Assembly: GCA_029858425.1 (NCBI GenBank)
Contig: JAOUFE010000003.1
Span: 1 to 44,320 of the forward strand
Length of the DNA: 44,320 nt
Reading direction: 5' to 3'
Source: Spirochaetia bacterium
GTDB taxonomy: Bacteria > Spirochaetota > Leptospiria > Turneriellales > JAOUFE01
In this document: piece after piece, positions 13,425 to 44,320 of the stretch
How the letters are laid out: the number at the start of each line of letters is the position of its first letter
How positions within the stretch are numbered: position 1 is the first letter of the stretch
The notes under the pieces: generated by a model
Databases searched by the model: none
What the model saw: the letters and a program-made list of their open reading frames with translations, nothing else
What the model was told of the DNA's origin: nothing
Made by a program: the position numbers and the translations under genes

Positions 13425-13554
13425 GGAGCTTGGGCATGAACTCGAAATTCAGTCAGAATAATCTAAATAAGCGCAGTTTTGGGGCGCTTCACGCCCCAAA
13501 ACTGCGCATTATAATACATTTTGATCTGATTATTGAGGTTCATGCCCAAGCTCC
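13425..13554. repeat. Nested palindromic repeat, copy A (complete)
   Basis: Outer arms of 17 bp are perfect inverted repeats (GGAGCTTGGGCATGAAC at 13425-13441; its complement at 13538-13554). Inside is a second perfect inverted repeat of 16 bp (GCGCAGTTTTGGGGCG at 13471-13486 with 13492-13507) around the 5-base loop CTTCA. Shorter pairing between them (GAATAATC with GATTATT) would extend a cruciform. The flanks just outside the outer arms also pair imperfectly. It lies between divergent pdxH and dksA-like. The first 30 bases after 13425 (13426-13455) are identical to 32296-32325. Confidence 0.85.
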
Positions 13555-16345: not shown

Positions 16346-16393
16346 TCATTTTACCTGTTTGGCGAGCTTACTCAAGTTGTCAATTTGAAAAGA

Positions 16394-16546
16394 CAATGCT
16401 CCCAAACTCGCGCAGGTAAATGGAAAAAATATTTTCCTTTCTCCGGAATTTTTATCCGGAAAGGGCGAAATATTATAGTTTTATCGTCGTTTACAGTTAA
16501 ATCAAATTGGCGCGAGCTTTTTACCTGCGTGAGTTTGGGAGCATTG
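16394..16546. mobile_element. MITE-like element with 27-bp inverted ends and flanking direct repeats
   Basis: Ends: CAATGCTCCCAAACTCGCGC at 16394-16413, continuing to 16420, is inverted at 16520-16546 with a single mismatch in 27. The sequence GAAAAGA flanks it directly on both sides (16387-16393 and 16547-16553), as a target-site duplication of 7-8 bp would. The middle contains another small palindrome (CTTTCTCCGGA...TCCGGAAAGG). No gene fits inside. It lies between divergent ahcY and the ctpA-like gene. Confidence 0.7.
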
Positions 16547-22250: not shown

Positions 22251-22310
22251 ATCTAAAGAAATTCTGCGCGCAACAACCCGTCTACTCTTTTTAAGAGATA
22301 TTTGGATTTG

Positions 22311-22348
22311 AGAGCTTGGGCATGAACGCCAGTTCATGCCCAAGCTCT
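22311..22348. repeat. Nested palindromic repeat, copy C (outer arms only)
   Basis: AGAGCTTGGGCATGAAC, spacer GCCA, then its exact complement: a perfect 17-bp inverted repeat. These are the outer arms of the copy A element with the whole interior missing. It ends 16 bases before the left inverted end of the IS1182-type element. Confidence 0.8.
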
Positions 22349-22363
22349 TGACGCCCCATTGGG

Positions 22364-24063
22364 GGCCAGGCCGGAACTCGCCAGATTTTTTGAATAATAC
22401 CTGTCATTTTGAAAATTATATAGGAAACCTGAGGTGTATTTGGAGTTTGGCATATGAAAAGAGTTAAGCCATCGATGAAATCACAGGGTATGATGTTTGC
22501 CGAATATTTTATAGATGATCGCCTGCCAGATGACCATGAGGTCTATGTTTTTGATGCATTGGTAGATGAGCATGATTTAAGAGAGATTATAGATTCATAT
22601 AGTAGTGAAGGCGGTAAAGTGTACAATCCGCGCGATATGGCAGCAATTCTTCTCTATGCTTATTCAAAAGGTATCACAAGCAGTTATCGCATCGCTGGGG
22701 AGGTTTGTACAAATCTTGCCTTTATTTATCTGGCGGGCGGCAATCAGATAAGTCGTCGAACGCTGTGCCAATTTCGTCGGAGAAATGCGAGTTTGCTTAA
22801 AAAATTATTTTCCTCAACGGTTCAAAATGCGATTGAGGTTGGCCTGATCGATCCGGATGGTTTATTTGCCATTGATGGGAGCAAATTTGCCGCAGATGCA
22901 AGTAAATCTAAAACAAAGACCAAAAAGGAATGGGTGGATCGGAAGGCAAAAATTGAATCCAGCATTGATCAATTTTTAGACGAGATTGAAGTAAATGACC
23001 TGGCCGAAGAAGGGCTTGAAGAGGAACGATCCCGCAAGTTTAAAGAAGCGATGCAGAAAATAAAAGACCGCAGAGAGAAAAAATTAAGTAAACCGGAGAC
23101 AAGAGAACTCAATCGCGTAGAAAAGCAGGTTTTTGAGCATGAGAAAATTGGAAGACTGCTTAAGCTTCATCCGGATTTGAAAGATGATGAGAATATCAAT
23201 TTAACCGATCCTGAAAGTCGTTTGCAAAAAAATGGTACCGGCGAATTTTTGCAGGGCTATAACGGCCAGATAATTACATCAAATCAGATCATCGTTTCAG
23301 CCGATCTAATACAGGATGAAAATGATCAGTACGCTTTGCAGCCGATGGTACAAAAACTGGAAAAAGAACTGCCAGAGAATGCGCAATTTAAATTTTTAGG
23401 CGACGCAGGTTATAATAGAGGCGAGAATTTAAAATGGTTAGACGGAAAGAAAAATATTGATCCGTATATTTCCATGGCAGATCGTCGCGAGGACAATAAA
23501 ACTGATCTGGAAAAAGCAACCGGCAATGATGCCTTTCAATACGATGAAAATGAAGATCGTTATATTTGTCCGACCGGAGAGCCTTTGGAATTTTTTAGAA
23601 ATCGGGAATCGAAGGGCAAATTATACAAAGATTATCGGGCAGCTATTTCGACGTGCCAGCAATGTCCCGGCCGACACAAATGTTTAAATACCGCCGCCGA
23701 TTTGAAAGCGGGCGCAAAAATAATCGCAGACGATGGAACGCTGGTTTTTCGCAAAGCAATGCGTGAAAAGATGGCCTTGCCTGAATCAAAAATCATTTAC
23801 GCTGAGCGAGCTGTCGAACCAGAACCTGTTTTTGGCCACATAAAATTCAATTTGGGGATCCGGCGATTCAGAATGCGGGGGTTTTCGGCTGTTAAAGGCG
23901 AATTTCTACTAATAAGCGCGGCAGTAAATCTCTCAAAGTTAGTCAGATTCAAGCAAAGGCTAACAATCCATACGATTTGATCAGAAAACCAATTCCACTC
24001 AACCATCCCCGGATGAAAATCTGTACCATGACACCTCGTGCGACCTGAAGTTCCGGCCTGGCC
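22364..24063 (+). mobile_element. IS1182-type insertion sequence
   Basis: One transposase gene framed by a 15-bp perfect inverted repeat, GGCCAGGCCGGAACT at 22364-22378 and its complement at 24049-24063. Outside these the match fades. I could not identify a clear target-site duplication, so the exact boundary may be a few bases off. About 1.7 kb, normal for the family. Confidence 0.7.
22454..23980 (+). CDS. IS1182-family transposase
   Basis: Intact 508-residue DDE transposase. The N-terminal DUF772-like region (about 50-140) includes RRTLCQFRRRNASLL. The catalytic acidic residues appear to be D141 (FAIDGSKFAADAS), D317 (FLGDAGYNRG) and E457 (VEPEPVFGHIK), followed by the conserved LGIRRFRMRGF. 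A Cys-rich insertion with CPTG and CQQCPGRHKC, typical of the family, lies at about 372-410. TGGAG stands 8 bases ahead of the ATG. No frameshift is visible, so the element may still be active. Confidence 0.88.
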   Translation: MKRVKPSMKSQGMMFAEYFIDDRLPDDHEVYVFDALVDEHDLREIIDSYSSEGGKVYNPRDMAAILLYAYSKGITSSYRIAGEVCTNLAFIYLAGGNQISRRTLCQFRRRNASLLKKLFSSTVQNAIEVGLIDPDGLFAIDGSKFAADASKSKTKTKKEWVDRKAKIESSIDQFLDEIEVNDLAEEGLEEERSRKFKEAMQKIKDRREKKLSKPETRELNRVEKQVFEHEKIGRLLKLHPDLKDDENINLTDPESRLQKNGTGEFLQGYNGQIITSNQIIVSADLIQDENDQYALQPMVQKLEKELPENAQFKFLGDAGYNRGENLKWLDGKKNIDPYISMADRREDNKTDLEKATGNDAFQYDENEDRYICPTGEPLEFFRNRESKGKLYKDYRAAISTCQQCPGRHKCLNTAADLKAGAKIIADDGTLVFRKAMREKMALPESKIIYAERAVEPEPVFGHIKFNLGIRRFRMRGFSAVKGEFLLISAAVNLSKLVRFKQRLTIHTI

Positions 24064-24143
24064 TCATTGGAGACTTTATGAAGAAAAAATTGTTCTTGAT
24101 CTGGAGGGAAGAAAAAAAATTATGTGTCAGAGAAGAGGATGCA

Positions 24144-24902: not shown

Positions 24903-25023
24903 TCGGTATAATTTGTTCTTTTAAAATTTAGCTCAAATGTGATTCCTTTGATTTCATATTCAACATGATCCCGGACTGGAACTCAAAAATCAGCCTTATC
25001 ATTGGTATAAATAACCGTTTTTT

Positions 25024-25054
25024 GGGGATGTCTAAAAAGAAAAAATATCACCAC
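25024..25054. repeat. Second copy of the 8551-8698 repeat end
   Basis: GGGGATGTCTAAAAAG and the following 15 bases are the reverse complement of 8667-8698, apart from one base fewer in the A run. The opposite end of the element is not found here, so this is a partial or diverged copy (a CTCCGTG fragment recurs near 25119). It lies between tpiA and the next lipoprotein gene. Confidence 0.7.
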
Positions 25055-25648: not shown

Positions 25649-26060
25649 CCTTGAAGGTGTTTCAAGTCTTGCTTTTTAAAAGTTTTTTGGAAATATGGCT
25701 ACGCGGAGTTTATTAAACGACTCTCAAGATTTTTTGCCTTTTCCTCAATAATCCTCTACAATGGGTGCATGAAACGTACAAATCTTGTGCTTGAGGATAA
25801 ATTGTTGCCAGAAGCTTTGAAGGTATCGGGCAGCCGACCTATTCGGCGGCAGTTCATGAAGCTCTTGAAGAATATTGTCGGTTGCCTCGTGTTCAGGAAA
25901 TTTACAAATTAAAAGATCTGGCATACGGAAAGAGGATCTGGCCGAAATACGCGCATTTCACAGCATCCTGACGTGAACATCGAAGTTCTTGCCCAGGCAT
26001 CTGACAACAGTATGAAAACAGTTGATTGACATAATATTCTAATATTTATATGTGGAATCC
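25649..26060. other. Gap holding a broken antitoxin gene
   Basis: About 410 bases with no intact gene. The middle carries the VapB-type pseudogene listed separately. Its usual toxin partner was not found downstream. The last 80 bases should contain the methyltransferase promoter. Confidence 0.5.
25769..25976 (+). pseudogene. Frameshifted VapB-type antitoxin gene
   Basis: Three successive reading frames read as one VapB-like antitoxin. Frame one from the ATG gives MKRTNLVLEDKLLPEALKVS. After what looks like a one-base loss near 25836, the next frame gives TYSAAVHEALEEYC and VQEIYKLKD. A second shift near 25920 gives KEDLAEIRAF and then stops. The ribbon-helix-helix start (RTNLVLEDKLL) and the terminal EDLAEIRA are typical of VapB partners of PIN toxins. 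With two frameshifts and no adjacent toxin, it is a relic. Confidence 0.65.
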
Positions 26061-32295: not shown

Positions 32296-32377
32296 GAGCT
32301 TGGGCATGAACTCGAAATTCAGTCAATTTGATTTAACTTGGCGCGTTTATGGGGCGCTTCGCGCCCCATAAACGCGC
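32296..32377. repeat. Nested palindromic repeat, copy B (left half plus inner hairpin)
   Basis: The first 30 bases are identical to copy A (13426-13455). The inner hairpin is a perfect 16-bp inverted repeat (GCGCGTTTATGGGGCG at 32341-32356 with 32362-32377, loop CTTCG). Its stem differs from copy A's at three positions, and each change is matched on the other arm. The right outer arm is absent. It lies about 90 bases upstream of the acylphosphatase start. Confidence 0.85.
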
Positions 32378-32465
32378 AATTTAATACATTATGATGCAAT
32401 ATAATTTTTAGTAAAAAATGATTGATAAGGTGTCTAAAGTAGCTATTTTGTCTAAAATCCAATAT

Positions 32466-43171: not shown

Positions 43172-44320
43172 ATGAAATATTTTAAAGAATTGCTGATAAT
43201 CTCTGTGCTTTTAATTTTTTCTTCATGCAAGGCATCCTATTTATATGATTTGGTGAATGGAAAAAATACAATCACAAATACAGGCGCCATTGCAAGTACA
43301 AGTACAACAAGTACAAGTACAACAAGTACACAATCACCCATCTCTGCATTTGCATATGTGGCGAACAATGGCAATAACAACGTTTCGATGTATGCGATCG
43401 ACGCTGCCACGGGCGTACTTACCGCAAACGGAACCATTGCGGCCGGGACAGGTCCAATTTCTGTAACGGTAGACCCCACCGGACGATTTGCATTTGTGGC
43501 GAACTCTGGCGGCAACAACGTGTCCATGTACACCATCAACCCTGCCACGGGCGTACTTACCGCAAACGGAGCCATTGCGGCCGGAACAGGGCCAATGTCT
43601 GTAACGGTAGACCCAACCGGGCGATTTGCATTTACGGCAAACTCCACCACTAACGATGTGTCCATGTACACAGTAAACCCTGTCACGGGCGTACTTGCCG
43701 CAAACGGGATGGCCATCCCGGCAGGGACACAGCCAATGTCTGTAACGGTAGACCCAACCGGAAGATTTGCATTTGTGGCGAACTATGTCAGTAACAACGT
43801 GTCCATGTACACCATCAACCCGGCCACGGGCGTACTTGCCGCAAGCGGGACAGTCGCGGCCGGGACAGCTCCAATTTCTGTAACGGTAGACCCAACCGGA
43901 CGATTTGCGTTTGTGGCAAACGGCGCCAGCTCCAACGTGTCGATGTATACGATAAACTCAGCCACGGGAGCGCTTACCGCAAACGGAACCATCGCAGCAG
44001 GGACAACTTCACGTTCTGTGACAATCGACCCAACCGGACGATTTGCATTTGTGGCAAACACCGCCAGTAACGACGTGTCGATGTACACGATCAACACATC
44101 GACGGGCGCGCTTACCGCAAACGGTACCATCGCAACAGGAGCAAGTCCATTATCTGTGACGGTAGACTCAACCGGACGATTTGCATTTGTGGCAAACGCT
44201 GGCAGCGCCAACGTTTCGATGTACACGATCAACTCGACCACGGGCGTACTTACCGCAAACGGCAGCAGCGCGGCCGGGACAAACCCGGCTTTTGTAACGG
44301 TAGTGCGCAGCAAACCGCGC
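43172..44320 (+). CDS. Seven-bladed beta-propeller surface lipoprotein, 3' end beyond window
   Basis: The frame is open to the window edge (383 codons). It starts MKYFKELLIISVLL and has a lipobox FSSC about residue 19. A Ser/Thr-rich linker (STSTTSTSTTST) follows. Then come seven near-identical units of about 46 residues, each with FAFVANSGGNNVSMYTI and a GVLTANGTIAAGTGP-type turn followed by VTVDPTGR. These are YVTN/lactonase-type propeller blades, beginning at codons near 43352, 43490, 43628, 43769, 43907, 44045 and 44183. In the last 20 bases the unit diverges (VVRSKPR in place of VDPTGRF). Probably exposed at the cell surface; no catalytic residues recognised. Preceded closely by the barrel protein, so likely one operon. 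Confidence 0.75.
   Translation, partial: MKYFKELLIISVLLIFSSCKASYLYDLVNGKNTITNTGAIASTSTTSTSTTSTQSPISAFAYVANNGNNNVSMYAIDAATGVLTANGTIAAGTGPISVTVDPTGRFAFVANSGGNNVSMYTINPATGVLTANGAIAAGTGPMSVTVDPTGRFAFTANSTTNDVSMYTVNPVTGVLAANGMAIPAGTQPMSVTVDPTGRFAFVANYVSNNVSMYTINPATGVLAASGTVAAGTAPISVTVDPTGRFAFVANGASSNVSMYTINSATGALTANGTIAAGTTSRSVTIDPTGRFAFVANTASNDVSMYTINTSTGALTANGTIATGASPLSVTVDSTGRFAFVANAGSANVSMYTINSTTGVLTANGSSAAGTNPAFVTVVRSKPR
43293..43330 (+). repeat. 15-bp microsatellite coding a Ser/Thr linker
   Basis: AAGTACAAGTACAAC repeated about two and a half times. The period is a multiple of three, so copy-number change would lengthen or shorten the linker without shifting frame. Confidence 0.6.
43352..44320 (+). 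repeat. Seven tandem 138-bp propeller-blade repeats
   Basis: Period 138 bp, except one step of 141. Long stretches such as GTAACGGTAGACCCAACCGG are identical across units at DNA level, which suggests recent duplication or gene conversion. The seventh unit ends at the window edge. Confidence 0.85.

Follow-up and report, generated by a model that had tools for sequence, protein, structure and literature searches.

A nearly palindromic MITE family, probably of IS1182 type, with paired changes in its central hairpin in a Spirochaetia genome

The window, by which we mean the whole 44,320-nt stretch of DNA analysed, carries at two places the nested palindrome that had been singled out in an earlier note on this sequence (Table 1). 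For the full-length copy A, the 17-bp outer arms and 16-bp inner stem described there were confirmed in both coordinates and sequence, and the same is true of copy B, noted at 32296-32377, which has its first 30 bases in common with copy A and an inner stem (GCGCGTTTATGGGGCG, within a hairpin at 32341-32377) that differs from copy A at three positions, every one of them matched on the opposite arm. In copy A, the covarying bases form the triplet CAG/CTG of the inner hairpin (13474-13476 / 13502-13504). The right end of copy B is not recognisable, the match stopping at position 101 of the 128-position model. Rather than just two nested hairpins, the unit is a single long imperfect palindrome, with a predicted minimum free energy of -78 kcal/mol for the 125-nt consensus. 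What chance would produce is far exceeded, both by window shuffles and by a reversed-motif control across the genome: a 19-mer arm motif has five matches in the window at up to 3 mismatches vs 0 in 100 shuffles, while the 16-base arm has 146 matches genome-wide at up to 2 mismatches vs 1 for its reversed control. Two further repeats of the window are separate observations. An inverted-repeat element at 16389-16545, with 27-nt arms separated by 99 nt, matches two sister-species contig ends at 98% identity, as compared with about 65-77% for matches of sister-species genes; it is probably a further element that moved or was transferred recently. A tandem array at 43296-44303 (period 138-141 bp, about seven copies) overlaps open frames.

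Table 1. Coordinates of the palindromic elements, the IS1182-family insertion sequence and the second repeat. Positions are those of the window unless another locus is named.
Feature	Position	Strand	Basis or details
Copy A, full-length 128-bp MITE	13426..13553	+	nhmmer 138.7 bits, model 1-128
Copy A, left terminal arm, 17 bp	13425..13441	+	sequence; GGAGCTTGGGCATGAAC
Copy A, right terminal arm, 17 bp	13538..13554	-	sequence; GTTCATGCCCAAGCTCC on +
Copy A, inner hairpin	13471..13507	.	16-bp stem 13471-13486 / 13492-13507, loop CTTCA
Copy B, MITE, 3'-truncated or decayed	32296..32396	+	nhmmer 87.7 bits, model 1-101
Solo terminal hairpin	22312..22347	.	GAGCTTGGGCATGAAC-GCCA-GTTCATGCCCAAGCTC; 4-bp duplication TTGA on both sides, 22308-22311 and 22348-22351
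IS1182-family insertion sequence, candidate transposase source	22362..24065	+	IRL GGGGCCAGGCCGGAACTC, IRR (reverse complement) GAGGCCAGGCCGGAACTT
IS1182-family transposase, 508 aa	22454..23980	+	NCBIfam NF033551 346.5 bits (cut-off 270), Pfam PF13751 (DDE_Tnp_1_6) 77.4 bits
Left-half remnant, IS1182-end type arm	24970..25027	+	second palindromic repeat TGTCTAAAAAGAAAAAATATCACCACG begins in tip
Right-half MITE remnant	25941..25998	+	nhmmer 25.8 bits, model 69-126
Second palindromic repeat sites	L082:3728-4020, L112:13311-13546, L070:19311-19529, L089:14200-14365, L128:117-266, window 25024 onward		

The palindrome is a member of a gene-less family with well over 150 copies in the genome (2.65 Mb in 220 contigs), so that the case in which only these copies exist, named in the earlier note as one that would weaken its reading, is excluded by the genome-wide arm matches and by a profile search. 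Used as a BLAST query, copy A scored 40 places, and the profile search of 1.36 Mb, a sample of about half of the genome that is biased towards contigs with matches as these were taken first, found 162 loci that do not overlap and score above 25 bits, of which 151 are intergenic. By crude ORF calls, the gaps holding copies were 63 divergent, 58 tandem and 6 convergent, against 147, 307 and 95 for background gaps; the preference for divergent gaps perhaps reflects a link with negative supercoiling or avoidance of 3' regions. At one locus (L063:9605-9644), a purT-like gene seems to take its C-terminal codons from the left half of an element. Among the 393 genomes of the phylum that were compared, only this one has more than one occurrence of the arm motif, and an exact-pattern scan of other GTDB genomes returned no matches.

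Elements of this family are bounded by GAGC...GCTC and have terminal inverted repeats of 16-17 bp. For the 52 copies with both arms recognisable, identical 4-mers exactly abutted both ends in 17, vs 0.5 expected when flank pairing was shuffled; the other 35 have no 4-bp duplication, with decay, recombination or replacement-type insertion as candidate causes, and we count this absence against the explanation preferred below. One copy (L069:18081-18208) is flanked not by 4 bp but by a 15-17-bp direct repeat, TCCATTTTTTAATATTC, its near-identical sibling at L066 having 4 bp. Reverse-transcription-like insertion with variable duplications and 5' truncation, a candidate raised by L049 and L059, was dropped when the survey gave a duplication of fixed length. 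In the sister genome G001, where two copies of the family occur in the 116 kb examined, genes matching one flank of copy A and one flank of copy B occur without an adjoining element; gene order differs from that of the present genome, hence no clean empty site was seen for either copy. With its short, non-coding and dispersed copies, terminal inverted repeats, fixed-length duplications and insertion polymorphism between relatives, the palindrome is a MITE of 128 bp, almost fully palindromic.

The earlier note could name no repeat family for it; our answer is an IS1182-type MITE, and we consider it likely that the element is moved in trans by an enzyme of that family and that its compensated changes arose in the mobile lineage, not in resident copies. 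An IS1182-type DDE transposase is present in the genome, and the window's own insertion sequence is flanked by the 4-bp duplication ATTG (22358-22361 and 24066-24069). The ends of this insertion sequence match those of the main MITE family at only 12 of 19 positions, and no intact IS1182 with exactly GAGCTTGGGCATGAAC ends was found in this genome. Agreement between element and partner ends comes from a sibling MITE subfamily and from the sister genome. The former (L098:6855-6962) ends in GAGGTTAGGCCGGAACTCG, which matches the consensus of the window IS ends at 17 of 19 positions, and it has the inner-hairpin layout of the main family with a different stem sequence, again paired. The latter holds a broken IS1182 gene (NF033551, 32.5 bits, below the cut-off) in a fragment ending in GAGCTTGGGCATGAACTCAATAATC; this terminus and the right end of the MITE are identical over 16 bp and, over 25 bp, differ by a single C. 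A 130-bp derivative in the present genome (G000:C11:4462-4591) has a G001-type IS1182 end on one side, the double hairpin on the other and a CAAC duplication. Because the IS1182 remnants of G001 have the MITE's 25-bp terminus, we infer that the MITE probably arose from IS1182 ends; it is probably mobilised by the enzyme of the window IS1182 or by that of a lost sister IS1182. No close relatives of the window transposase were confirmed in other GTDB genomes. An autonomous element carrying half a MITE at each end was sought and rejected, as pairs of halves 0.9-4 kb apart held ordinary genes (for example a purT-like gene) and no transposase.

ERIC, NEMIS (Correia) and RUP are likewise intergenic imperfect palindromes of about 100-130 bp, present in many copies and presumed to be MITEs. 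They resemble the present family in size, palindromy and intergenic copies, and differ in transposase family; we know of no sequence relation between them, the comparison having been made through Rfam only (no match). In Methanosarcina acetivorans, IS1182-derived MITEs with ISMac2 as partner are non-coding, 160-169 bp long, with inverted repeats of 25-26 bp and, in one of two families, a 4-bp direct repeat (PMC3852290). The present family is similarly non-coding, with a 4-bp duplication and an IS1182 partner, but it is 128 bp long, palindromic almost throughout and about ten times as numerous, and has a covarying central hairpin and a flipping loop. IS1272, itself of the IS1182 family, is described as transposing by stem-loop replacement, in which a stem-loop is replaced and no target duplication is made (PMC5678879). 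Our family has the same transposase family and an interplay with inverted repeats, whereas 17 of its 52 surveyed copies have 4-bp duplications and the inverted complementarity of its flanks is not clearly in excess, a result that also led us to reject insertion into palindromes as a candidate. By analogy, the IS1272 model makes hairpin dependence of the MITE plausible, although its hallmarks are missing from many insertions.

In a 38-copy alignment, the inner stem is the only one that RNAalifold retains, and three of its pairs have changed on both arms. These adjacent pairs occur as C-G 27 / T-A 8, A-T 19 / G-C 15 and G-C 24 / T-A 9, with permutation p values of 0, 0 and 5e-5 (20,000 permutations). 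The 13 other variable pairs, including an outer-arm position with T, C and A as common bases, showed no compensation (permutation p 0.17-1). The three-pair compensation, for which covariation over many copies had been proposed as a check, therefore extends across the family and is restricted to those pairs. Paired triplets were CAG, CGT, TGG, TGT, CGG, TAG and CAT, most of them one base pair from another, and a frequent mismatched class in several copies, with CAG facing ACG, may represent an intermediate with a bulge. Compensation depends strongly on how widely a variant is shared: 57% of cells were compensated for inner-stem variants in six or more copies, vs 9% for those in one or two copies and 4% for those in three to five. 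As rare variants are mostly uncompensated, fixed copies decay without maintenance; resident copies lose pairing like unconstrained DNA, and the paired changes belong to lineages that went on multiplying. How many of the compensatory events were independent is uncertain, since the copy backbone is too short and its tree star-like and poorly resolved, and a tree-based count was given up for this reason. We find it somewhat doubtful that a few old tip variants were recombined among backbones, such that few events are counted repeatedly: the scatter of triplets on the star-like tree, where the left one changes 14 times, agrees with this, but there are at least seven paired triplets, most one base pair apart, each needing its own paired change.

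The same figures bear on an RNA element, in which transcribed copies would fold as a stable hairpin, like the RNase III substrates ERIC or NEMIS, and the host would select the fold. The very stable predicted fold and the paired inner-stem changes are what such an element would show, yet only 4-9% of rare stem variants are compensated, with the subfamily-fixed pair 48/87 excluded, G-T mismatches are about as frequent as A-C ones (no RNA-type strand signature), orientation relative to tandem genes is unbiased (28:30), Rfam has no match in the window, and outer-arm variants pair no more than independence predicts (at pair 5/129, pairing was observed 10 times vs 9.2 expected). Neither maintained covariation in resident copies nor strand-specific G-U tolerance was found, and we regard this explanation as very improbable. 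The earlier note had left two readings of the compensation, a fold under selection or one copied by a palindrome-linked process; the compensation rates, mismatch balance and orientation counts above do not support selection for the fold in resident copies, and the flipped loops favour palindrome-linked copying.

On the same backbone orientation, the hairpin loop reads TTC or GAA, TCC or GGA, and TTT or AAA, and three of the four same-stem copy pairs with at least 95% identity outside the tip differ by exact loop inversion (copy A/L076, L131/L113 and L068/L111). This suggests an event centred on the palindrome, for example template switching or the resolution of a cruciform, with a slight risk of mis-assembly at palindromes; as seen in one assembled genome, the loop could flip in place rather than at transposition. 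Palindrome loops occur in both orientations in the hairpin-loop inversions of plastid genomes and the flip-flop ends of parvoviruses, in contrast to which the loop here flips inside dispersed bacterial transposon copies. As a separate observation on the tip, a second palindromic repeat (ends TTGTC..., core AAGAAAGAAAAAATATCACCACGG) has about 22 occurrences, about half of which replace the MITE's GGGG-loop-CCCC tip, without target duplication, by apparent insertion into, or replacement of, the hairpin.

Compensation without any selection is a real possibility if quasi-palindrome correction, through template switching or cruciform resolution, makes one arm a copy of the other while inverting the loop. 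The loop inversions between near-identical backbones suit such copying, as do the confinement of compensation to the short hairpin, with none in arms about 100 nt apart, and a run of right-arm bases in the left arm of L122. Continual action in place should also compensate rare inner-stem variants, however, which is not seen, and L122 is the single clear case of arm conversion, two others being explained by an IS1182-type arm. It is just as conceivable that an intact central hairpin is required for amplification, for example as a cruciform that joins the ends, so that double mutants replace single ones. Compensation would then be limited to variants common to many copies, as observed, and the sibling subfamily retains the hairpin with a different sequence; the stem-loop activity reported for IS1272 (PMC5678879) is also in keeping with this requirement. 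By itself, it does not explain the loop inversions, and the frequent CAG/ACG class, with a bulge in several copies, counts against it.

Our best reading, an IS1182-type MITE whose inner hairpin is kept perfect, or templates itself, in the mobile lineage, allows for either. An IS1182 transposase acting in trans would recognise the ends GAG..T/C.GGC..GAACTC of this element without a gene, which inserts mostly between genes and duplicates 4 bp. The central 37-bp hairpin may form as DNA, as a cruciform or a lagging-strand hairpin, while the element is copied, and this is the likeliest reason for the compensation: either perfect hairpins alone would amplify, or one arm would serve as template for the other, flipping the loop as well. 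After insertion, resident copies would decay freely. Changes on both arms of the central hairpin occur only in lineages still jumping and are therefore a trait of mobile DNA, not evidence of a folded RNA selected by the host. A stronger form, that every round of transposition takes the central palindrome through an intermediate, hairpin or cruciform, for which one arm serves as template and which is resolved either way up, giving new copies self-matched stems and a randomly flipped loop, strikes us as unlikely. If true, it would be a bacterial DDE-MITE analogue of parvoviral flip-flop, and hairpin formation would be part of IS1182 transposition. Covariation is often taken as proof of functional RNA, and here the paired changes of a MITE family belong to mobile DNA while resident copies decay. 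In addition, the family is a large natural data set for asking whether IS1182-family transposition needs DNA hairpins, a proposal that comes mainly from IS1272.
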